From: a virus
IMG/VR virus record: IMGVR_UViG_3300009169_000032
Span: 1-47,304 of that record
Direction: 5' to 3' (one strand)
DNA length: 47,304 nt
Shown here one piece after another: positions 2,072-44,700 of this stretch. Under the pieces are notes generated by a model. It was not told where the DNA came from. It did no database searches and was given only the letters and a program-made list of their open reading frames with translations. Position 1 is the first letter of the stretch; the number at the start of each line of letters is the position of its first letter. The translations under genes and the position numbers were made by a program.

Positions 2072-3376
2072 TTACTCTACGTTTTCTTCAAACCACTTGA
2101 TAACTAATTCTTTTGGAATAACATCACCATAATATTCTTTATATTGCTCTCCACCTTTTTTAATAACATAAGAAGTATCATCATTATTAATACTATCAAA
2201 ATATTTTATATAATCACTCACACTATTAAAATCTTGTCCTAATATACTTATTCCACCATCTTGATATGCCAACATTTTATACTCATTAGGATCAATATCA
2301 ACACCAAATATATTACCAAAATAAGTATTGATTTTATTTAAATCTTTAAAATCAAATCTAGTATCATCATAACCTTCAATTTGAATTAAAATATCATCTA
2401 AAATAGTAATCTTTATATCAGTTTCTTCAAACCAAGTATTAAATACTAAGGTATCAGTATTATAAGTATCATATTCTAATGTATTAGTGTGTAATAAGTC
2501 ATATTTATTTAATATTTTCTTAATACCATCTATAACTTTCTTATTAGCGAATCTATGTCTAGGTACAATATTATATTTAGGTTGAAAATATGTTACTTTT
2601 CTAACCGTTGGCAGTTTTTCCCATTGTACTTTACAAGCAGCTTCTAAAACTGATTTAGTATAAGATAAATCAACCCATTCAGTAACATAATGTTCTTTCC
2701 ATCCACCTGCACTAATATTAGTACACTCTGGTATAATATCCAAAAATGTTGCAGTGTCTGTATAATAAGCATTTGGATCTGGAATAGACTCAACACCAAA
2801 TTCTGTTAATTCATCACTTAAAGTGTCTGCAAATTCTTCTGAACAACAATATCTTGCTTTTTGTCTTCTTACAACAGAACCTTTTTCCTTTCTATCAAAT
2901 GCAACTGCTCTTTTAAATTGTTTGAAGAATTCAGGATTTGCCTTTAATGCGTTTTGAGAACCCCATAATCCACCACTTAAAATTGGTTCTTCACCAAGGA
3001 AGAAGTAATAAGTACCTGGTATACCTCTTTCTATCATTTTTAATAGAATAGTCATACCTAATTTATTATCACCACCTAAAATAGTTTTACCATCAGTTTT
3101 GATAATATCACCATCTATTACATGATTAACTTTTTCATATTTTTCACAATATGTATCTAAGTGTGTTGTGAACAAAGTTTCAGATTTACCTACTTGAATA
3201 TAATAATTTCCAATAGAATCTTTTTTATATCCTTTTGGTAAATATTTTTCTAATTTGGTCTCATGACCATAAGGAATTGTATATTCAGTTAACTTTAAGA
3301 ATGTATCTGTAAAATCATCACCAGTTAGTTTAAGTTTACTTTTATTAAATAAACCTTCATTTATATTTTCTTTCAT
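2072..3376 (-). CDS. M20/M28-like zinc metallohydrolase, copy 1
   Basis: 434 aa from ATG at 3376; an upstream TTG would add five residues but is less likely. Metal-site motifs occur in family order: H72-L-D74 in TTHLDT, D103 in GGDNKLG, the E129-E130 pair in LGEE, D161 in AFDRK and H229 in GWKEHY. This is the pattern of co-catalytic zinc peptidases and deacylases. It is about 40% alike by eye to the gene at 3895-5241 through the catalytic core, so the two are tandem paralogs, with a small acidic gene between. The N-terminus MKENINEGLF has an I-N-E/G end like other leaders in this window, so packaging in the capsid is possible. Substrate unknown. Confidence 0.75.
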   Translation of the reverse strand: MKENINEGLFNKSKLKLTGDDFTDTFLKLTEYTIPYGHETKLEKYLPKGYKKDSIGNYYIQVGKSETLFTTHLDTYCEKYEKVNHVIDGDIIKTDGKTILGGDNKLGMTILLKMIERGIPGTYYFFLGEEPILSGGLWGSQNALKANPEFFKQFKRAVAFDRKEKGSVVRRQKARYCCSEEFADTLSDELTEFGVESIPDPNAYYTDTATFLDIIPECTNISAGGWKEHYVTEWVDLSYTKSVLEAACKVQWEKLPTVRKVTYFQPKYNIVPRHRFANKKVIDGIKKILNKYDLLHTNTLEYDTYNTDTLVFNTWFEETDIKITILDDILIQIEGYDDTRFDFKDLNKINTYFGNIFGVDIDPNEYKMLAYQDGGISILGQDFNSVSDYIKYFDSINNDDTSYVIKKGGEQYKEYYGDVIPKELVIKWFEENVE

Positions 3377-3404
3377 ATTACAAATATACAATATTATTTT
3401 TTAA

Positions 3405-3893
3405 TTAAAAAGGTTCATCATTACTTTGTTCTTCATCATCATAATTATCTTCCAAACCTTCATTAAGATAAAAGTTAAATTCTAATATAGTCTCACCCTT
3501 TGTTGTTTGATACATATTAAATTCAGAATCATATTGTGGTATAATATCTGTTTTTAAATGATATAAAACATCAAAAATACCTCTAACATTACTTAATCTT
3601 TCTTTTGTTAACATAACTACTGATATACATATATCAAATTTTCTATTTTCAACAAAAAAATCTTCAATACCCTTATTTCTTAAAGTATTTCTAAGTAAGT
3701 ATAGAATATGTTCCATACCATCGTCAATATTAGTATTACCACCATAATATTCATCATCATAGTAATCTTTATCAGATCTAGTTTCATCAGTATCTGCATC
3801 CCAAGGATGATGATCATCACTCCAGTCTTGTTCTTGTTGCTCCCAAGATTCATCATCAACTCTTTCTATAAATTTCTTATATTTGTGTATCAT
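3405..3893 (-). CDS. Acidic hypothetical protein with packaging-leader-like N-terminus
   Basis: 162 aa. Begins MIHKYKKFIERVDDE, a basic-aromatic helix ending in F-I-E, similar to the MK..K.F.NE leaders of other minus-strand genes here. Residues 15-60 are extremely acidic and rich in D, E, W, Y and H. Residues 60-145 look globular (LLRNTLRNKG, ISVVMLTKERL), and the tail is acidic again. It sits between two metallohydrolase paralogs with tiny gaps (28 and 1 bases), so is probably co-transcribed. No recognised domain. Confidence 0.7.
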   Translation of the reverse strand: MIHKYKKFIERVDDESWEQQEQDWSDDHHPWDADTDETRSDKDYYDDEYYGGNTNIDDGMEHILYLLRNTLRNKGIEDFFVENRKFDICISVVMLTKERLSNVRGIFDVLYHLKTDIIPQYDSEFNMYQTTKGETILEFNFYLNEGLEDNYDDEEQSNDEPF

Positions 3894-3894
3894 A

Positions 3895-5241
3895 TTATTT
3901 TAATTCTATTTTGATGTATGTTTCCTCAAAAATAACGTAAGGATCTATAACATTATATCTATCTAATATATTATTAACTTGGTTAAGTGTATCATTTATT
4001 GTTTTAACATCAGAACTGTCTAAATCTAATTTAATAAAAACTCTATCGTCTTTACCAACTATCTTTACTTCCAGACCAAATACATATCTTTTAACTTGAT
4101 TAATTAATATTTTATGTTTTCTTACTATTTCACTATTTATACCTACTTTTCTAACCGATGGTAGATTTTTCCAATCAACATTTATAGATGCTTTAGCCAA
4201 TTTTTCTAAATAAGTAATATTTTGTATTTCTTTACCAGTATGTTCATTATTATAACCAACCGATATATTAGTACATTCTGAAATATCATCAATAAATGAT
4301 GCAGAATCTGTAAATATTCCAGTATCATCTAATGCCAATCTCAAACCACCTTTACTATACTCTCTAGAAAGTGCATTACCAAATTCAGTAGAACAACACT
4401 CTCTACCATATTGTGAGGTAATAATTGATGTTGTTTTTCTTCTATCAAAAGAAATACATCTTTTTATATCTTTTAAATAATCGGTATCATCAAATACATC
4501 CGCTAGTTTACGTGATCCAATACCACCTCTTTCTTCACCTACGAAGAAATAATAAAGTCCTGGTACATTATGTGCCATCATATAAAGCATAACTGCAACA
4601 CCAGATTTATCATCAGCACCTAAAATACTTGAACCATCCGTATAAATATATTCATCACCGTCTATTATCTTAGATAATAAATTAGTAGGTACTTGTTTTC
4701 TATCAGCAGTGTCTAAGTGAGAAGTAAACATTGTTTTTTCATCACCAGGAATTATTTTATAATAGTTACCGTGTATATCTTCTGTTAAATTAGGAAGAAA
4801 TTTTAATACTTCTTCTTCATGACCCATTGGATAAGTCATTGTAACCATTGATAAAAATGTTGATCTAACATCTTTGGGTTTATAAATAAATGGTTGGTGT
4901 TCAACCGGAGTACCAACTACACCTACTTCACCTTTTTTAATCTTATTATAAGCAACACTAAATTCCAAAATTTCTTTATCATCAACATCATCAAAATATG
5001 CCTTTGTAAATCTATTAATTGATAAAGTTGTTTTCTTTCCTTTAATTGTAGCATTAAAGCAATTATCAATGTCAGAAACATCTAAATAGTATATCCCTAA
5101 TGAATTTTCATATGGTGTTTTAGTACCAGTTATCCACATAATTTCATAAGCGAGAAGATTATCATAATCATCTTCTATTTCTGAAATTACCTTTACTAGT
5201 TTTGGTGAAAATTTTATACCAAAATCTTTATTATTCGCCAT
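3895..5241 (-). CDS. M20/M28-like zinc metallohydrolase, copy 2, with N-terminal extension
   Basis: 448 aa. Catalytic motifs are complete: H175-L-D177 (SHLDT), D210-D211 (GADDKSG), E236-E237 (GEER), D266 (SFDRR) and H334 (NNEH). Compared with the paralog at 2072-3376 it carries about 110 extra N-terminal residues of unknown fold before the shared TYPMGHEEEVLKFLP segment. Shared landmarks CCS-EF (282-287) and NLPSVRK near residue 357 confirm paralogy. Family members hydrolyse peptide or amide bonds with two zinc ions. A tandem pair in a phage is unusual. Substrate cannot be told from sequence. Confidence 0.75.
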   Translation of the reverse strand: MANNKDFGIKFSPKLVKVISEIEDDYDNLLAYEIMWITGTKTPYENSLGIYYLDVSDIDNCFNATIKGKKTTLSINRFTKAYFDDVDDKEILEFSVAYNKIKKGEVGVVGTPVEHQPFIYKPKDVRSTFLSMVTMTYPMGHEEEVLKFLPNLTEDIHGNYYKIIPGDEKTMFTSHLDTADRKQVPTNLLSKIIDGDEYIYTDGSSILGADDKSGVAVMLYMMAHNVPGLYYFFVGEERGGIGSRKLADVFDDTDYLKDIKRCISFDRRKTTSIITSQYGRECCSTEFGNALSREYSKGGLRLALDDTGIFTDSASFIDDISECTNISVGYNNEHTGKEIQNITYLEKLAKASINVDWKNLPSVRKVGINSEIVRKHKILINQVKRYVFGLEVKIVGKDDRVFIKLDLDSSDVKTINDTLNQVNNILDRYNVIDPYVIFEETYIKIELK

Positions 5242-5735: not shown

Positions 5736-7400
5736 TTAGTTAAGTAATTGAGCAGCATCTGTAACTACAAGAGTCATAAATTGCTTTTGAGGGTACCAAC
5801 CCACTTCTGCAACAGCATATCTTGATCTAAGTAACATTCTTGGAGCAAATGTAGCCTCAGAGATAACTGAGATAGATTGTGCCATCAAGTAAGGTACGAA
5901 GATGATACCTGGTTGATCAGGGTTATTTTTTCTACCAAGAACGATTCTGTTATCGTTATATTTCATGTATGGATCAACATAGATAGAAATATCTCCGATA
6001 GAACCAACTGGGTAAAGTTGACCTTGAGAGTTCATTTTAGATTTAACTGGGTTAATTGTGTAACCAGCAATATCTTGTAATGATGCAGCTAAACCTCCAT
6101 TAGTAATTAAATACTGTGCAGGTCCAACACGTCCTTCAGTTGCGATGTAGTTAGAAGCGTGAGCAATTTTCGTGATCAATTTTCTTTGTACAGCGTGAGT
6201 AGTTTCTCCACCTAATGAAGTACCTGTAGCATAGTTAGTATTTAAATCAAAGATAGAAACACCTGAACCATTCAATGGTGCACTAGTTCTGTTCAATGTT
6301 CCCATTTCAAAGATTTTAGCAACAATTTGTTTAGAGATTGTTTGAGACAATTCATTAACAAGGATTGATTCCATTTTTTGAACGATATCCATACCTGTGT
6401 TAGCTTTGATGTCTTCAATTTCTGTTCTTCTTAATGCTGAAGATATTTCAATAGTACCAACTGCAATAGTTTTAGAAGAAATTTTTGGTCCAATAACACC
6501 TGAGTAAGATTGGTCATCTGATAATCTATCCATTGGATAAGCTCCTGCAGCAGATCCTGTAAGAGAAGAAGTCCAGTTTGCAGAGAAACCTGGAATATGA
6601 TCTTCCAATGCAGATACTAATTGTATTTCAGATACAGTAACCGAAACTGTTCCGATATAAAGTATTTGAGATGTCATAGAACCTGTTTGGTTGAATGTGT
6701 TTTTAGTTGCATCAAATGCAAATGTATTAAATTGACCTGCAGTATTTGCTTGTCTGTAAGATCTAAACATTGGCAATCCATCGATACGAGAGAATCCTAA
6801 GAATTCAACAATGCCTGCTTTAGATCCAGTTGGCTCAGAATAAGTAACAGCACTTGAAGTACCGATATTTAAAAATACTCTACCACCTACTAAACCACCT
6901 TGATTCTGTGTAATTGTACCAGAATTAGTTGCACCAGCCAATAAAGCAGATGCTGTAGTACCTACATTGATTTTGAAAACTTGTGGTCTTTCACCACTTG
7001 CCAAATCAACATCATCATATTGAAAGTCAATATAAAGTAAATCTAATTTAGGACCTGGAGTTGGTTTAACAGCAACTAAGTCTAAACCGATTGTTTGAGC
7101 AGCAATTTTCATTGCAACTGGTAACAAGTTTTGTCCAACATCACCTGAACCTGGAGTTCCTGTGTAAGCACCACCTAAAGCAGCACCTAAAGTTGATCCA
7201 GCAGGACCACCCAAAATTGGGTTAACAACATTTCCCATACCTGCAACGTTTGTACCGTTTACGTATGCGTTCTCGTTGATAGAGTGGAATTCAGCATATT
7301 CTGACATCCATTCAATTCTATCTTCCGAAACTCCCATGTTTTCCAACACTGGAGACCATTTTTTCATGGCTTTTTGATTATCTATTCTAATTTGTGACAT
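5736..7400 (-). CDS. 23: Major capsid protein (T4 gp23-like)
   Basis: 554 aa (T4 gp23 is 521). The N-terminus KWSPVLENMGVSEDRIEWMS corresponds to the gp23 N-terminal arm. LLPVAMKIAAQTIGLDLVAVKPTPGP (about 92-117) matches the conserved gp23 N-terminal block, and the segment from KTIAVGTIEISSALRR through MDIVQKMESILVNEL corresponds to the gp23 long-helix region. I41-N-E43 is a likely prohead-protease site (T4 consensus L/I-x-E), which would remove 43 residues. Codon use is less AT-rich than neighbours, as expected for the most abundant virion protein. It follows the protease-scaffold gene by 88 bases, has a late-promoter-like element at 7473-7487, and is followed by a strong terminator. Confidence 0.93.
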   Translation of the reverse strand: MSQIRIDNQKAMKKWSPVLENMGVSEDRIEWMSEYAEFHSINENAYVNGTNVAGMGNVVNPILGGPAGSTLGAALGGAYTGTPGSGDVGQNLLPVAMKIAAQTIGLDLVAVKPTPGPKLDLLYIDFQYDDVDLASGERPQVFKINVGTTASALLAGATNSGTITQNQGGLVGGRVFLNIGTSSAVTYSEPTGSKAGIVEFLGFSRIDGLPMFRSYRQANTAGQFNTFAFDATKNTFNQTGSMTSQILYIGTVSVTVSEIQLVSALEDHIPGFSANWTSSLTGSAAGAYPMDRLSDDQSYSGVIGPKISSKTIAVGTIEISSALRRTEIEDIKANTGMDIVQKMESILVNELSQTISKQIVAKIFEMGTLNRTSAPLNGSGVSIFDLNTNYATGTSLGGETTHAVQRKLITKIAHASNYIATEGRVGPAQYLITNGGLAASLQDIAGYTINPVKSKMNSQGQLYPVGSIGDISIYVDPYMKYNDNRIVLGRKNNPDQPGIIFVPYLMAQSISVISEATFAPRMLLRSRYAVAEVGWYPQKQFMTLVVTDAAQLLN

Positions 7401-7488: not shown

Positions 7489-9633
7489 TTAAACATTTTT
7501 GAATCTTTCCATAATTTGAGAAACCTCATTATCAGATAGTTTATCCTCTTGGATTAAACTTTCGTGAGCAATAAGTTTTTTAGTTACGGCTTCATTTGTT
7601 TTGATATTTCTAGTAGACCAGAAATGTTCAATTTGATTTTCAGTTTTTAATACATCTTCTGGATATAGTCTAGCTTGTGACAAGATAGATTTTTTAGAAG
7701 ATCCATTTAACTGTTCCCAGATTGGCTTCATGTTTTCAGGCATCAATCTAATTACTCTTTCTTCAAGAGATTCGTTTTTTGTTGAAAGTGTTTCTGCGAT
7801 TAGAGTAAGAACTTCTTTTTGTGTAAAATAACTACTTTCGCTTATGTGTAGTTTAACATTGTCTTGTTCTTCGTCAGATAGTGCATAATAACTATCAACT
7901 TGTGATTTATTTAAGAATTTCAAGAAATTCAAATCACTGCTTTCAGAAACTTTACGTTTTTTAGCTTCTTCAATTAATTTATCTATAGAGTTAGAAAGTT
8001 CTGAATCATTATTACCCTCAAATTCGTGAGCATATTCTTCTTTTTCTTCTTCGTGTACAAATTCTTCTTCTTCATTACCAACATTAAATTCTTTTTCAAA
8101 TTCCTCTTCGTCACTTGAAAGACCCGCTGGTTCACATTCTTCACATTCTTCTTCGGAAAATTCAGGTTTGAATTCTTCTTCAGTATCATCAAATCCAGCA
8201 TCTAATAAAGATGGAAATGCATTTTCTTCTTCGTCATTAAATCCTTCGTTTACTTTAGTTCCAAATGAGTTTAATTTTTCAACAATCATTCCTTGGTAAG
8301 AAATAGATTTATCTAAGTTTTCTGCAACATACTCAGAGTAAGCAATGTTATCATCTAAATGTTCAGCAATGTATTCAGAGTAAGCAATGTTACCTTCAAC
8401 ATGTTCTGCTAAGTATTCAGAATAAGCAATTGAATTATCAACAGATTCTGCAATATATTCAGAATAAGCAATATTTTTATCCAAATTTTCTGCAATGTAT
8501 TCAGAATAAGCAATATTTTTATCCAAATTTTCTGCTAAGTATTCAGAATATTCAATGTTTTTGTCTAAGTTTTCAGCTAAATATTCAGCATAAGAAATGT
8601 TTTTGTCTAAGTTTTCAGCGATATATTCAGAGTAGTTAATATTTTTATCTAAATTCTCAGCTAAGTATTCAGAATAATCAATATTTTTGTCTAAGTTTTC
8701 AGCCAAATATTCAGAATAGTTAATAGCCTTTTCTAAATTCTCCGCCAAATAATCATTATGTTTAGCCAATTTAGTTGTAGTTTCTTTTAATTCTTTATTT
8801 TCATTAACCATTACTTGAATTTTATCAGCCAAGTAATCTAAGTATTTAGCAACTTGTGCATTACTTCCATTTAATTCTTCATAATACTCTAAAAGCTGTT
8901 CTAATTTCTTAGGCTCCATGTTTCCTTTAGTAATTGCAGTATTAACTACTTTTTTAGTAGATGCAATCTCATTAACTAGATAGTTTGAATAATCTGTTAA
9001 TTGTTGTTTCGTTACAAATTCATTTTTGTTCATATTGAATAATTCGTTTATTTTAGACTCGTCAGACATCTCATATATCCTAAAGTTATTTTGTTCAATT
9101 TGTCCATTTGTACAGTAACCCAATGATTCATTCAATACTTTTACACTCATTTTAGCAGATGCAAATCCAGGATCAGCAACAATATCATAAGTAAAAAGTT
9201 TTTTTAATGACACCGAACCATCCGATTCAGTAATACCTGCGGCTCTTGAAGATACAAAAACAGGACATCCGTCATTAACTAATGCCTTTGCTTCTTTTCC
9301 CCAATAAGTACTTAACAATTTGATTTCACCTTCAACTGTGTTTTTTTCAACAACATATTCGGCTTTTGTAATAATGTGAGATGCTCTTGACAATGAGGTA
9401 TCAAAAACATCCGGGTGATCAAACTCACCATAAACAGCACCTAGGCTATTCATTCTTTCATTCATTTCACCTAATGCAGGTAGGAATTTTTCAGCAGTGT
9501 ATATTCTTTCATTACGATTTTTAACACCAAATTCTGTAAAAGTACCATTAAGGATAAAATCCTTACCATTAGACGATGCACTCTCTCTAATTAAAGAATT
9601 AGTTGAGTTTTCTACTATTAAAACTGGTTTCAT
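7489..9633 (-). CDS. Prohead protease fused to scaffolding protein (gp21-gp22-like)
   Basis: 714 aa. Residues 1-170 are a gp21-family serine protease: GVKNRNERIY (36-45), catalytic His73 in GEFDHP, Ser128/129 in FVSSRAAG, and YDIVADPGF with D150 as probable third residue. Residues 190-290 are helical. Residues 292-446 hold eleven copies of a 14-residue repeat, YSEYLAENLDKNIA, and 460-560 is very acidic (E-rich). The last 150 residues are a helical domain ending in ISQIMERF-like sequence. In T4 the protease and scaffold are separate genes (21 and 22); here one polypeptide covers both. Each repeat holds an (L/I)AE motif, the T4 protease consensus, so the scaffold is probably chopped into small peptides after assembly. 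Confidence 0.85.
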   Translation of the reverse strand: MKPVLIVENSTNSLIRESASSNGKDFILNGTFTEFGVKNRNERIYTAEKFLPALGEMNERMNSLGAVYGEFDHPDVFDTSLSRASHIITKAEYVVEKNTVEGEIKLLSTYWGKEAKALVNDGCPVFVSSRAAGITESDGSVSLKKLFTYDIVADPGFASAKMSVKVLNESLGYCTNGQIEQNNFRIYEMSDESKINELFNMNKNEFVTKQQLTDYSNYLVNEIASTKKVVNTAITKGNMEPKKLEQLLEYYEELNGSNAQVAKYLDYLADKIQVMVNENKELKETTTKLAKHNDYLAENLEKAINYSEYLAENLDKNIDYSEYLAENLDKNINYSEYIAENLDKNISYAEYLAENLDKNIEYSEYLAENLDKNIAYSEYIAENLDKNIAYSEYIAESVDNSIAYSEYLAEHVEGNIAYSEYIAEHLDDNIAYSEYVAENLDKSISYQGMIVEKLNSFGTKVNEGFNDEEENAFPSLLDAGFDDTEEEFKPEFSEEECEECEPAGLSSDEEEFEKEFNVGNEEEEFVHEEEKEEYAHEFEGNNDSELSNSIDKLIEEAKKRKVSESSDLNFLKFLNKSQVDSYYALSDEEQDNVKLHISESSYFTQKEVLTLIAETLSTKNESLEERVIRLMPENMKPIWEQLNGSSKKSILSQARLYPEDVLKTENQIEHFWSTRNIKTNEAVTKKLIAHESLIQEDKLSDNEVSQIMERFKNV
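8296..8760 (-). repeat. Eleven 42-base tandem repeats within the scaffold part
   Basis: Coding repeat of 14 residues (consensus YSEY-L/I-AENLDKNI-x). The first copy (HNDYLAENLEKAIN) and the last copies (AESVDNSIA, AEHVEGNIA) are diverged while the central copies are almost identical, indicating expansion by slippage or recombination from the middle. The length is exactly two heptads, consistent with a helical rod. Every unit has Leu/Ile/Val-Ala-Glu. Confidence 0.9.
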
Positions 9634-35739: not shown

Positions 35740-38700
35740 ATGGATAAACAGTTATTAAATGCACTAGATAATTTATCAGAAGCACTAGTTATGATCTCAG
35801 AAGCCCTTGAAAAAAAGGGTAGTAGTAACACTACGACCACTAATGTTTTACAAAGTGGAGATTTCTCTAAAGAAATTAAAGAAATTAGTGCAGGTATAAA
35901 TTCCATAAAGTCAGATACACAAGAAATTCTTAAAAATCAAAAGACAATTTTAGAAATGTCTAAGAGTAAAGAGAAGAAAACTGGTCTTTTTGAAGAAACT
36001 GCTGATAAAAAATCAGAAAGTAATATTAAAAAAGGTGTTAGTACTATTCTATTAATTGCAGTAGGTGTACTTGCAATTGGATTAGCATTTAAATTAGTAG
36101 GTAGTATTGACTTCGTATCAGTTGTTGGATTATCATTAGCTATTCTTGTCATGGCAATGGCATTTGAAAAAGTAGCTAAACTAAAACTAACACAAGATGA
36201 TGCGATAAATACAACGAAGATACTAGTAATGATGGCACTGGGTATAACATTGTCATCTTGGATATTAAGTTTGGTAAAACCAATTGGTGTTACTCAAGCA
36301 ATTACTGCTATATTAATTGCAGGTATGTTTACTGTTATATCATTTGGTATATCAAAAATACTCAAAGGTTTAGGTGGTGAAAATGTTGTAACATTAGGTA
36401 AAAGTATTTTATTTCTTCCTATTTTATTACCAGCAATTGCACTAGGTATAACATTATCATCTTGGGTATTATCTATGGTTACTCCAATAACACTCGCACA
36501 AGCAGTTACTTCTATACTAATTGCTGGTATGTTTACAGTTATATCATTTGGTATTGCAAAAATATTAAAATCACTAGGTGGTGCGAATGTAGTTACATTA
36601 GGTAAAAGTATTTTACTTTTACCAATTTTACTACCTGCAATTGCATTAGGAATAACCTTATCATCTTGGGTATTACAGATGGTTACACCAATAAGTCTTG
36701 GTCAGGCAGTTACTTCTATATTAATAGCAGGTATGTTTACAGTTATATCATTTGGCATGGCAAAATTACTAAAATCACTCGATGGTATTAGTCCAGGTAC
36801 AATAGTTGGTGCAGTATTTATACTACCACTATTATTACCAGCAATGGCATTAGCAATCGCAGTATCATCTCATGCACTTGGTATGGTAATACCTATAACT
36901 TTTGCACAATTTATTACTGCAATAGGTATATCAATTTTATTTATAGCTTTTGCGTTTGCACTTAAATTAATTTTACCAGTTGTTGGTAAGTTAGATATGG
37001 GCACTGTTATAAAAATACCTTTAGTTTTTACACTTTTAACACTAGCAATTGCCGCATCCGCGTATATATTATTTCAAGCACAAGAATATCTTAATGGTAT
37101 ATCTTTTGGTTCAATGATTAAAATATTAGTGTTTAGTGTTTGTTTGGCAATATCTATTGCAGTAGTAGCTGCGGCAATGTGGGTTGTTAATAAGTTAGGT
37201 AATCCTGGAACTTATTTTGCAGGTGGTATCTCACTGGTGATAATAGCAACTGCTATTATGGTAAGTTCATTGATACTATCAGAAGGTAAATATGAGAAAT
37301 ATCCAGACTGGAAATGGTCTTTGGGTGTCGGAATTTCACTATTGGCATTTGGTGCGGCAGCAGTTGTTTTAGGAACAATTGCAATGAGTGGTCTTGGGGC
37401 CTTAGCTATATTAGCAGGAGCTGTTGCAATCTTAGTAGTAGCTACAACAATAGTTGCAACTTCACATATACTTGATAAAGGTAAATATGATAAATATCCA
37501 ACTCTAGGTTGGTCTATGGGAGTAGGTCTAAGTATGCTTGGGTTTGGTATGGCAATGGGTACCTTAGGTACATTTATATTAGGTTCGTTAGGATTAGGAA
37601 TGGTTGCATTAATGGCAGGTTCTGAAGCAGTATTGATGATAGCACAAACAATTGTTGATTCATCATTTATACTAGGAAAAGGTAAATATACTGGTGGACC
37701 TACTAAGGCTTGGTCAGAAGGTATATCTCTAGCAATCACAGCATTCGCACCAGTTTATACAGCACTTAGTTCAGGTGGATTCTTTAGTGTTAAAGTAACT
37801 CCAGAACAAATGAGTTCCGGTATATTAAGTATTAGTGATGGTATAATAACTGCAGCGAATAAATTCGCAGGTGTTAAAACCGCATTTAAAAATGGACCTA
37901 GTAAGGCTTGGTCTGAAGGTGTTGGATTGGCAATTGCCGCATTCGCACCAGTATATAAAGCACTTAGTTCGGGTGGATTCTTTAGTGTTAAGGTAACTCC
38001 GGAACAAATGAGTTCTGGTATATTAAGTATAGTAGATGGTATAATATTAGCAGCTAATAAATTTTCAGAAAGTAAAGCATCATTTAAGAGTGGTCCAACA
38101 AAAGAGTGGTCTGAAGGTGTTGGTTCTGCAATGATTGCATTTAGTCCAATATTTAAAGCACTGAATAGCGCAGGATTTTTTACATCAGGTGATGATGTAG
38201 TTGAAAGTATATTTAAAGGAATAACTTGGACTGCACAAGCAATTGTAAATGTAGCTCATAAATTTTCAAAAGTAAAGGCCAATGTATGGGAAGCATATCC
38301 CAAAAAAGAATGGGTCAATTCAGTAAAATCACTAATAAGTACATTTATTAGTATAACTAAAAGTATAAAAGGTATAAACTGGGTAGAGATGGGATCTATT
38401 GATAGAGTTGCATCACGGATAGTTAATACTGCAAAAATATTAAGTAGTGGTGCTAAATTCTTTAGTAAGAAAATCGATCCAAATTATATTAAAAGTTTAT
38501 CATCTAATGTACTAGGATTTGCAAATTTAGCAAAAAAATTAACTGAAATTAATAAAGGACAAGGTACTCTTAAAACATTATTTGGACAAGATCCAGTATC
38601 ACAAACTGCAAATTCAATGGTTAAATTGGCGAGTGCATATGATAAATTGGCAAATGCTTTGAAAAAATTTGGTGGTGCCTTATCATCAATAGATGGTAAT

Positions 38701-41732: not shown

Positions 41733-44700
41733 TTATATTATGGGACATTGATTTAAAGTATTGAGGCCAATCGTATCTGTGTAATCACTATAGGCATCAG
41801 ATAGGCTCCAGATTGTACCTTCATAAGTTGTTATGTACCCCTCAAAGAAAAGAGTCATTGCTCCTGATGGGTCATCCACTTGGAAAACAACTATACTCGA
41901 TTGACTGATGTATCCCCTATTATTAGTTTCATCAAAGATCAAATCTCCCGAACCGTCATCAGGAATTGTGGACCCACCTCCATAGAGAGTTACAATAGAC
42001 CTTACTCTAACCCAACTATTAACTGAGTCAATGGTTTCACCATTGATTTTTGAACTAAAATCTATATAGCCATCAATCCTATTTTCAGTATTAGTAGGAG
42101 TCATGGGATATACATTACTTGTCCAATACCCACAAAGATTACCAGTTATTATAGGAGATAGAGTAGTAGTAGTACTCGTAGTAGTACTTGTTGTACTAGT
42201 CGTTGTCGGAGCTTGAGTAGTTGTACTTGTAGTTGTACTTGTAGTACTCGTAGTTGTACTTGTTGTACTAGTCGTTGTCGGAGCTTGAGTAGTTGTACTT
42301 GTTGTACTAGTCGTTGTCGGAGTCGGAGCTTGAGTAGTTGTACTAGTCGTTGTCGGAGTCGGAGCTTGAGTAGTTGTACTAGTTGTACTAGTCGTTGTCG
42401 GAGCTTGAGTAGTTGTGCTAGTTGTACTAGTCGTTGTCGGAGCTTGAGTAGTTGTGCTAGTTGTACTAGTCGTTGTCGGAGCTTGAGTAGTTGTACTAGT
42501 TGTACTTGTTGTTGTCGGTGGTGCAATCGTAGTTGTCGTAATCTCATCAATTGGAACGAATGGACCTATTCGATCCTTAGTTTGATTATTAGTTATCAAA
42601 TCTTTATTGCCTCTTATTTCGTAATTTTTCTTATCAGTATAGACACATCCATAACCATTATCAGATGTTACTTCAACAACAATAAATGGATCTAAATTAG
42701 AATCAACAGTAAAATTAAATGGCAACATATTAGTACCACTTCTAAATTCAGATATTGTCTGAACTGGATCTAAACCTATTGGTCTCCATTCTGTTATATT
42801 CTTCCAATTTGAATCTAAAAGTGGACTTATTGTAGATTGTAAAGATGGAATAAGTAATACATAAATATCACTATTATATTTAACAATATTTGTCTCTATA
42901 TAAGTTTGATTAGACACCCAAGATGTAATCAATTCATATTTTCTAGGACTATTTACTCTATTCAAGTCAATAACTGACTCATATAAAATATCATAATATA
43001 TAATTCTATCACCTTTACTATATGTGAAAAAAGGAACCCATTCTTTAAATGTTTTATAAGTTCTTATCTTTATATTAAAGTAATCAGGTGAAACCAATTT
43101 AACTCCATTATATGGAGTTGGTGGTGTTTTCAATATATCAGTGTTTTTGTCCGCACCAATACCCGGTATTATAGAATATAAGTCTAATACACAGTTATAG
43201 ACAGTTGATCCACTATTAACCGGAATTAGATAAGCCTCATTTAATTTAAATGAAACTGGTGTCATATTTTCACTAATATTAATTATTCTAATATCATTAA
43301 CTCTATGTTGTATTTGAGTACCACTACTAAGATAAGCTCTACCTGTAATATCAAGTATTTTATGTGTTAATGGAATAATATTTTTCTTTAACCAATATTT
43401 CAAACCTTGTAATTTTATAATTACTTCATCAAGTGAATATGTTAGAACATTTGTACCATCTTTATCAGTTATAAAATAAGTTAAATTGAAAAGATTAGTT
43501 CCTTCAAACTTATCATTAGGCATTGTATGTTTAATAAAATCATTTTCCGTCCAACCTTCAACAGTATTGTCAAAAATATCAGGAATCTCTACTTTAAATA
43601 ATTTGGTAAAGTCAGAAGATGTTGTATCAACATTTTTATAATATTCATTTAGTTGTAAATCATTGTATCCAAAGAAGTTAATTGCATTTATAAGTGATTT
43701 ATAAGAACCAATATATGGATAAATCAGATGTTTCATCATCATCATTTCTTTTCTCTTCTTATTTAAGAAAGTCCAATCAATACCACCTTCTAATATATCA
43801 TATTGTTTAAATATAAATACATCTTGGGTATCAATCAATTTACCAATATTACCCAATTCTATTTTAAATCTAACATCTTCTTCTTCAGTTTGACCATATG
43901 TGAAAAATCTACCTATTTCCTTATCAACAACTTTTATACTAAAATCCAAATATGTAGTATTACCTACTTTTGGATAATCTGTTATAACAGTTGATTCATT
44001 TTCTAATATATCATTTTCTATATCAAAAAAATCCACTACTAATGTCCTAGTATATATTTCTTTTATTATAAACATAGATGCACTATTATGTGAGATATAT
44101 TGGTCTTTAGTATTACTATTATCTTTAACATAGATAACTATATGTTGGTCAACTTTTAATCCTTTATCAGTAAATACATCTGTTGAATTAACATTTAAAC
44201 TTATTTGACCTCTTCTAGTAGTAAGATTACTATCTAGTGTTTCCATTGTAATACTCTGTAAAATATTAGACTTTATTGTAAAGTAAATAGATTCTTGTTT
44301 ATATAATTGTAAGATAGAACGAAGTGCTCCTTCACTTTGTGATTGAAAACCAATAAATAATTGTAAAGGTTCAACATCAGTAGAAACATCAATACTATCA
44401 TCAATATGACTTAATGTATATTCTATTTTATCGAAGATTGTCTTTTGATATTCTGGTGATGAAGTTTTAGTAATATCAGTATTAGGTGTCTTATTTAATA
44501 CAACTGGACTCAATGGACTCAAACCAGTATATGAATATGATGCAGAACCTTTATAAATATTCTCACTTAATTGTAACTGAGTACCAGAGTAGTCATATAA
44601 AAAGAATTCTGGTACATTATCAGAAAACCATTTCCAATAGTATTTAACAGAATTCTCATCATTAAAATTTTCTCTAGGTCTTCTAAAATAATCTCTTGTT

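Follow-up and report, generated by a model that had tools for sequence, protein, structure and literature searches.

A putative protease-scaffold fusion of uncultured huge phages carries an array of 14-residue units, nearly all with a predicted protease site

The window analysed here is the whole 47,304-nt stretch of DNA of the IMG/VR virus record IMGVR_UViG_3300009169_000032 (positions 1 to 47,304; all coordinates are window positions), and the feature under study lies on its minus strand. There, a single 714-aa open reading frame (ORF) (7489-9633, −) combines a prohead protease with a putative scaffold or core protein and adjoins a gene for a gp23-like capsid protein (5736-7400; Pfam Gp23, E 3e-29). 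With a gp20-like portal gene further upstream, the succession of portal, protease-scaffold and capsid protein reproduces the 20-21-22-23 gene order of T4. Given the protease match, the helical character of the remainder and this gene order, the 714-aa protein is most readily interpreted as a fusion of a gp21-like protease with a scaffold, the scaffold assignment being the presumptive part. The preliminary description of this ORF had recognized the array but missed the T4 gp21-like (S77) prohead protease at its N-terminus.

The protease domain (residues 1-169; 9127-9633, −) matches the head maturation protease family PHROG 207 (E 7.8e-28), which places it in the S77/gp21 family, and Pfam S77 (PF03420) at E 5.7e-4 and 19.9 bits, below the 27-bit cut-off. 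Its modelled fold matches chains of the T4 gp21 crystal structure 5jbl (Foldseek E 5e-8 to 2e-7, target TM 0.66-0.68). The motifs G-E-x-x-H-P (GEFDHP, with H73) and S-S-R (SSRAAG, with S128/S129) have their counterparts in GELNHPP and VSSRG of T4 gp21, and H73, S128 and S129 are invariant among 54 sequences. The T4 gp21 protease itself loses nine N-terminal residues (PMC9958956); here, a predicted autocleavage site, I-R-E↓S (the arrow marks the predicted cut), occupies residues 15-17 (9583-9591, −), and nearly all distinct homologues have [LIV]xE↓[SNA] within residues 9-32. A second predicted site, L-N-E↓S at residues 167-169 (9127-9135, −), would release the protease from the scaffold. N168 and E169 are invariant in the 54 sequences, and [LIV]NE followed by S or A is found after the protease domain in nearly all homologues.

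Past the protease, a helical lead-in delineated by alignment, unit search and model (residues 170-291; 8761-9126, −) carries degenerate units and runs into the array of eleven 14-residue units (residues 292-445; 8299-8760, −), which was identified by repeat finding and alignment and is modelled as continuous helix. Directly beyond the array lies a predicted site V-N-E↓G (residues 461-463; 8245-8253, −), represented in homologues by K-[L/I/V]-[N/F]-E-[S/N/G] in an otherwise variable linker. The acidic linker of low conservation seen in the alignment (residues 464-540; 8014-8244, −; pLDDT mostly <50) leads to a C-terminal helical domain (residues 541-714; 7492-8013, −; model pLDDT ~80 over most of its length). 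In the predicted structure, residues 282-456, including the array, form one continuous helix, beyond which come the disordered acidic linker and the small helical domain; the pLDDT of the array in the AF2 model (60-74) is too weak to separate a single helix from a coiled coil.

The units of the array are in register and follow the consensus YSEY(L/I)AENLDKNIA, and at the DNA level they appear as a 42-bp tandem array at 8297-8718 with 80% matches (Tandem Repeats Finder). As previously described, there are eleven units, correctly placed, each with (L/I/V)-A-E: positions 5-7 read [LIV]-A-E in 11 of 11 (six L, four I and one V), and [LIV]xE is found in no other register within the arrays. The consensus quoted at that stage, YSEY(L/I)AENLDKNI, closely fits units 2-7 and does not fit unit 1 (HNDYLAENLEKAIN) or units 8-11, which are distinct (SVDNSI, HVEGNI, HLDDNI and ENLDKSI). 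Outside the array, the unit recurs in degenerate form on either side, for example as YLDYLADKIQVMVN in the lead-in before it and YQGMIVEKLNSFGT after it. The array has a strong 14-residue periodicity, and its hydrophobic moment shows the kind of maximum expected of coiled coils, at 103 degrees per residue. It contains 10 (L/I)xE motifs, against 4.7 in shuffles of its own composition (P 0.005). One candidate site per 14 residues, as first proposed, is thus present throughout, but the periodicity repeats one observation and does not provide eleven independent ones; the evidence that the motif exceeds chance comes from its conservation across phages and not from the count in one array, and it is this conservation that rules out chance as a full account.

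Close relatives of the fusion occur at 71 IMG/VR loci and in huge-phage genomes of 634.8, 636.4, 642.4 and 735.4 kb, with a divergent relative in the 462-kb record LR756500. The 634, 636, 642 and 735 kb genomes are the largest of the Mahaphage clade, with predicted Bacteroidetes hosts (Al-Shayeb et al., PMC7162821), and the source phage belongs with these uncultured huge 'Mahaphages'. Within the annotated phage collection, the array is present in six records only, all of them uncultured. All three array groups retain the fused ORF, as do the Lak megaphages (Prevotella phages, 540-550 kb), where protease, acidic linker and C-terminal domain share a single ORF, read with alternative code 15, whose ends are homologous to those of the window protein but which has a shorter acidic region where the helical array would be. 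Tenacibaculum phages pT24 (527 aa) and PTm1 (564 aa) also have a single long ORF, with the annotation 'prohead core scaffold (and protease)', and entries from both are among the structure matches; PTm1 is likened by annotation and structure match, whereas pT24 has a homologous C-terminal domain but no 14-residue periodicity, and a genome of ~235 kb. The C-terminal domains of pT24 and Lak were matched at 24-28 bits (hmmsearch), compared with a best score of 4.2 bits in 1000 shuffles, so that the window protein shares with Lak and Tenacibaculum phages the fusion of an S77 protease to a homologous C-terminal domain in a single ORF. Protease and scaffold are also joined in one polypeptide in lambda gpC/Nu3, P2 gpO and herpesvirus assemblin/scaffold, which involve other protease families and are not known to carry such a repeat array. 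Since Lak and pT24 have the fusion and the C-terminal domain without the array, the latter is an elaboration restricted to part of the protease-scaffold lineage, gained by, or lost from, an older fusion.

Conservation of the unit was followed in a close set of 37 distinct arrays, which comprise 401 units and include those of the 735-kb and 636-kb relatives, and in two further, more divergent groups (relatives of the 735-kb phage and relatives of the 462-kb phage); Fisher tests on unit positions count related sequences and are descriptive only. In the close set, Tyr-4 is kept in 401 of 401 units, Glu-7 in 400 and Ala-6 in 392, and position 5 is solely L, I or V. Asp is found at position 3 in 38 of these units and Glu at position 10 in 69, with Asp at position 7 in none. 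Both position 7 and its twin, position 14, face the exposed side of the helix, 173 degrees away from the hydrophobic face: the unit consists of two heptads, and the two positions therefore share one place on the helix. In the close set, variability within the unit is greatest at position 14 and nearly lowest at position 7; Tyr-4 apart, the P1 Glu is the sole polar exposed position that hardly changes. Because the twin position is free to vary, exposure or heptad geometry alone does not explain the retention of Glu-7, a pattern that a requirement for Glu at P1 would predict, although it does not prove one. In the most divergent group, whose units were located without scoring positions 6-8, Glu-7 is found in 62 of 90 units (69%), with a single Asp, and Ala-6 in only 28 of 90; certain units there, such as YAEYVGLK, consistently lack Glu, and cutting of every module would therefore not be needed. 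The proposition that every unit is a site does not extend to the most divergent relatives.

Candidate sites outside the array bear on the likely cleavage rule. The capsid protein has a predicted maturation site, I-N-E↓N, at residues 41-43 (7272-7280, −); this INE had been pointed out before and is indeed conserved in homologues, where all three array groups maintain [I/L/M]-[N/Y/H]-E with N at P1' (S in one). Val at P3 is likewise accepted in conserved sites outside the array. Together, the predicted sites outside the array and the capsid site suggest the rule [LIV]xE with S, N, A or G at P1', and, judging by these conserved candidates, the protease domain of the 714-aa ORF would cut after Glu at (L/I)xE. 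About three quarters of the array units fit [LIV]xE↓[S/N/A/G] fully. Among the 401 close-set units, P1' is Asn in 285, as in the E↓N of the capsid site, His in 87 and Ser in 21; P2, which is Ala in the array, is usually Asn, Phe or Arg at the sites predicted elsewhere.

The protease of T4 cuts after L/I-X-E and converts the scaffold gp22 into multiple fragments, most of which exit the head (PMC9026906, PMC9958956); in giant phages, extra propeptide sites are thought to yield smaller, more easily cleared fragments (PMC5694885). Like the scaffold part of the window protein, T4 gp22 is encoded next to the genes for a gp21-type protease and a gp23-type capsid protein and is dense in (L/I)xE (16 in 269 aa, far more than in shuffles, or 5.9 per 100 residues, against 6.5 in the window array), and its sites include IAE↓A, LAE↓S and LAE↓N; unlike it, gp22 is a separate gene with no 14-residue array. 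The presumed scaffolds ORF93 of Klebsiella phage RaK2 (24 in 370 aa) and 0471 of Pseudomonas phage Cassandra (19 in 368 aa) also lie between protease and capsid genes and, as with gp22, their counts exceed those of shuffles, but both are separate genes and that of RaK2 has no 14-residue periodicity. As T4 gp22, RaK2 and Cassandra are all enriched, dense sites in a scaffold are ordinary; the strict 14-residue module and the fused protease are the unusual part. The setting of the window scaffold is gp22-like in that it lies between protease and capsid protein, is helical in the model and is rich in (L/I)xE. Nevertheless, neither the whole protein nor its C-terminal domain was matched by PF25623 (T4_CASP) or PHROG 237, and hhalign of either against the T4 gp22 family was not significant; among gp22-type scaffolds, only gp22 of cyanophage P-SSM3 gave a signal, a weak one of 7.5 bits. 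By eye, the C-terminal domain and T4 gp22 look suggestively alike, but homology between them was set aside on the profile comparison.

The conservation of Glu-7, the site density comparable to that of T4 gp22 and the capsid E↓N that matches the array together make cutting of the array into small peptides, which would clear the head, the best explanation and on balance a probable one. From the computed features (the fusion, the protease fold, the conservation of the array and the conserved sites), we infer an assembly role, cleavage of the array and exit of the peptides. One polypeptide would constitute the prohead core, with its gp21-type serine protease, rod of 14-residue modules, acidic linker and C-terminal helical domain; many copies, joined by their helical rods, would build the core, and the gp23-like shell would form around it. 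With the shell complete, the protease would become active, free itself after LNE-169, trim the capsid protein after INE-43 and cleave the rod behind the Glu of (L/I/V)-A-E. Cutting to completion would produce 14-residue peptides with computed masses of 1.56-1.70 kDa, the exit of which from the head would free space for DNA; the computed monoisotopic masses are 1641.789 for NLDKNIAYSEYIAE, 1685.778 for NLDKNIDYSEYLAE and 1593.731 for HVEGNIAYSEYIAE. The original suggestion that the array is meant to be shredded into 14-mers is thus the likeliest reading by comparison, given the helical rod, the match to gp21-type sites and the fused protease, with the reservation that some divergent units lack Glu. 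A more specific version for the core of the largest known phages, in which selection keeps one protease site in each module of the rod, the attached protease would generate a uniform 14-residue ladder and the building unit would also be the disposal unit, is plausible, although we stop short of calling it probable. Shredding would turn an otherwise decorative-looking repeat into a concrete candidate for the way in which very large heads, here those of the Mahaphages with genomes of up to 735 kb, clear their core before DNA packaging, with exact peptide masses to look for.

Several features weigh against shredding. Tyr-4 is at least as conserved as Glu-7 yet is absent from the conserved sites outside the array, and YLAE may therefore be a binding motif; the Ala at P2 is unlike the other sites, and the His at P1' in 87 units departs from the rule; a continuous helix would be a poor protease substrate unless unfolded; and no significant match to the T4 gp22 family supports the comparison. 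The principal alternative assigns the array a solely structural or docking role, as a rod in which Y-[LIV]-A-E packs or binds a partner, the likeness to protease sites is incidental and the rod is released whole by the flanking cuts. Such a rod would account for the 14-residue spacing (four helical turns), the coiled-coil-like moment at 103 degrees, the single continuous helix of the model, the invariance of Tyr-4 in the close set, the conserved sites on both flanks of the array and the several divergent-group units without Glu-7. It accords poorly with an exposed Glu-7 that is never Asp in the close set while its twin position 14 varies, with the persistence of Glu-7 where Ala-6 is lost and with the generality of (L/I)xE enrichment in T4-type scaffolds, and we regard it as rather unlikely. 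Alternatively, the array or its peptides could stay in the head and act after injection or packaging, in the manner of the 2.5-kDa gp22 fragment and the 3.9-kDa gp67 fragment that remain in the mature T4 head (PMC9026906); nothing here points beyond the core, such uniform repeats look structural, and we consider this highly improbable.

The number and age of the units bear on a further reading. Across the 37 distinct arrays of the close set, 10, 11 or 12 core units were counted in 9, 25 and 3 arrays, respectively, with 12-13 or more in relatives of the 735-kb phage and 9-12 in the divergent group. The core comprises about 10-12 units in complete genomes of 462, 635, 636, 642 and 735 kb alike, with no trend of unit number with genome size over this range, and the Lak phages (540-550 kb) have the fusion and no array. 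The central copies, initially described as near-identical, are so as protein but not as DNA, in which ~36% of amino-acid-identical codons differ synonymously; for units of one array across the close set this fraction is 36-50%, about what random choice from the codon usage of the array would give. On average, the DNA of a unit resembles that of its same-position counterparts in other phages more than that of its neighbours inside one array, and the last four units have position-specific sequences kept over most of the close set. In locus L027, one pair of neighbouring units has the same DNA sequence. Units are gained and lost, yet the likeness of the middle copies owes more to purifying selection than to recent duplication; a recent expansion was rejected on the synonymous divergence and the same-position similarity, and the copy-number change postulated earlier finds no support as a recent event in these old copies. 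That the array is a ruler, with unit number dictating core length and head size and being adjusted as units come and go, is scarcely credible despite the variable copy number and the identical pair of L027, since similar unit numbers are maintained from 462 to 735 kb, Lak has the fusion without any units, the copies are old and genome size already suggests that head size is unrelated to unit number.

Other observations concern the same gene and its surroundings. At the protease/scaffold junction, codons 183-195 (9049-9087, −; AAC TTT AGG ATA TAT GAA ATG TCC GAT GAG TCA AAA ATA) show strong synonymous-site conservation, with Ile encoded by ATA in 41 of 41 sequences and Arg by AGG in 38 of 41, both codons being rare in the gene; the patch may embed a promoter, a start or an RNA signal that serves a scaffold-only product. 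An internal start for such a product, comparable to lambda Nu3, at the ribosome-site-like AGGATATATGAAATG and its ATG is not claimed: several relatives with AGG ATA or AGA ATA retained have GTA, CTA or ATA in place of the ATG, and no Shine-Dalgarno pattern was found in the 31 window genes inspected. Two further patches of raised synonymous conservation lie in the C-terminal domain, at about 7942-7980 and 7720-7761 (−; codons 552-564 and 625-638). Beside the main capsid gene, loci L043 and L046 have a second, shortened gp23-like N-terminus (...WMTEYANLHLKNEINMDTT...AAQTIGLDLV or IDLV), which may belong to a vertex protein or a capsid paralogue. In Flavobacterium phage immuto (L171, 4458-5699), the ORF between the protease and capsid genes is very acidic, with a duplicated segment of ~50 residues; annotated as 'DNA polymerase phi-like protein', it is more likely a scaffold and probably misannotated. 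Elsewhere in the window, two ORFs of 439 and 448 aa near the capsid gene (2072-5241, −) resemble, by eye, related metallo-aminopeptidases; a hydrophobic, perhaps tape-measure-like ORF of 1103 aa contains in-frame tandem repeats of 204 bp and 198 bp (36235-36870 and 37695-38123); and an ORF of 1826 aa includes a low-complexity repeat of the TTSTTTQAPT type (42164-42518, −).
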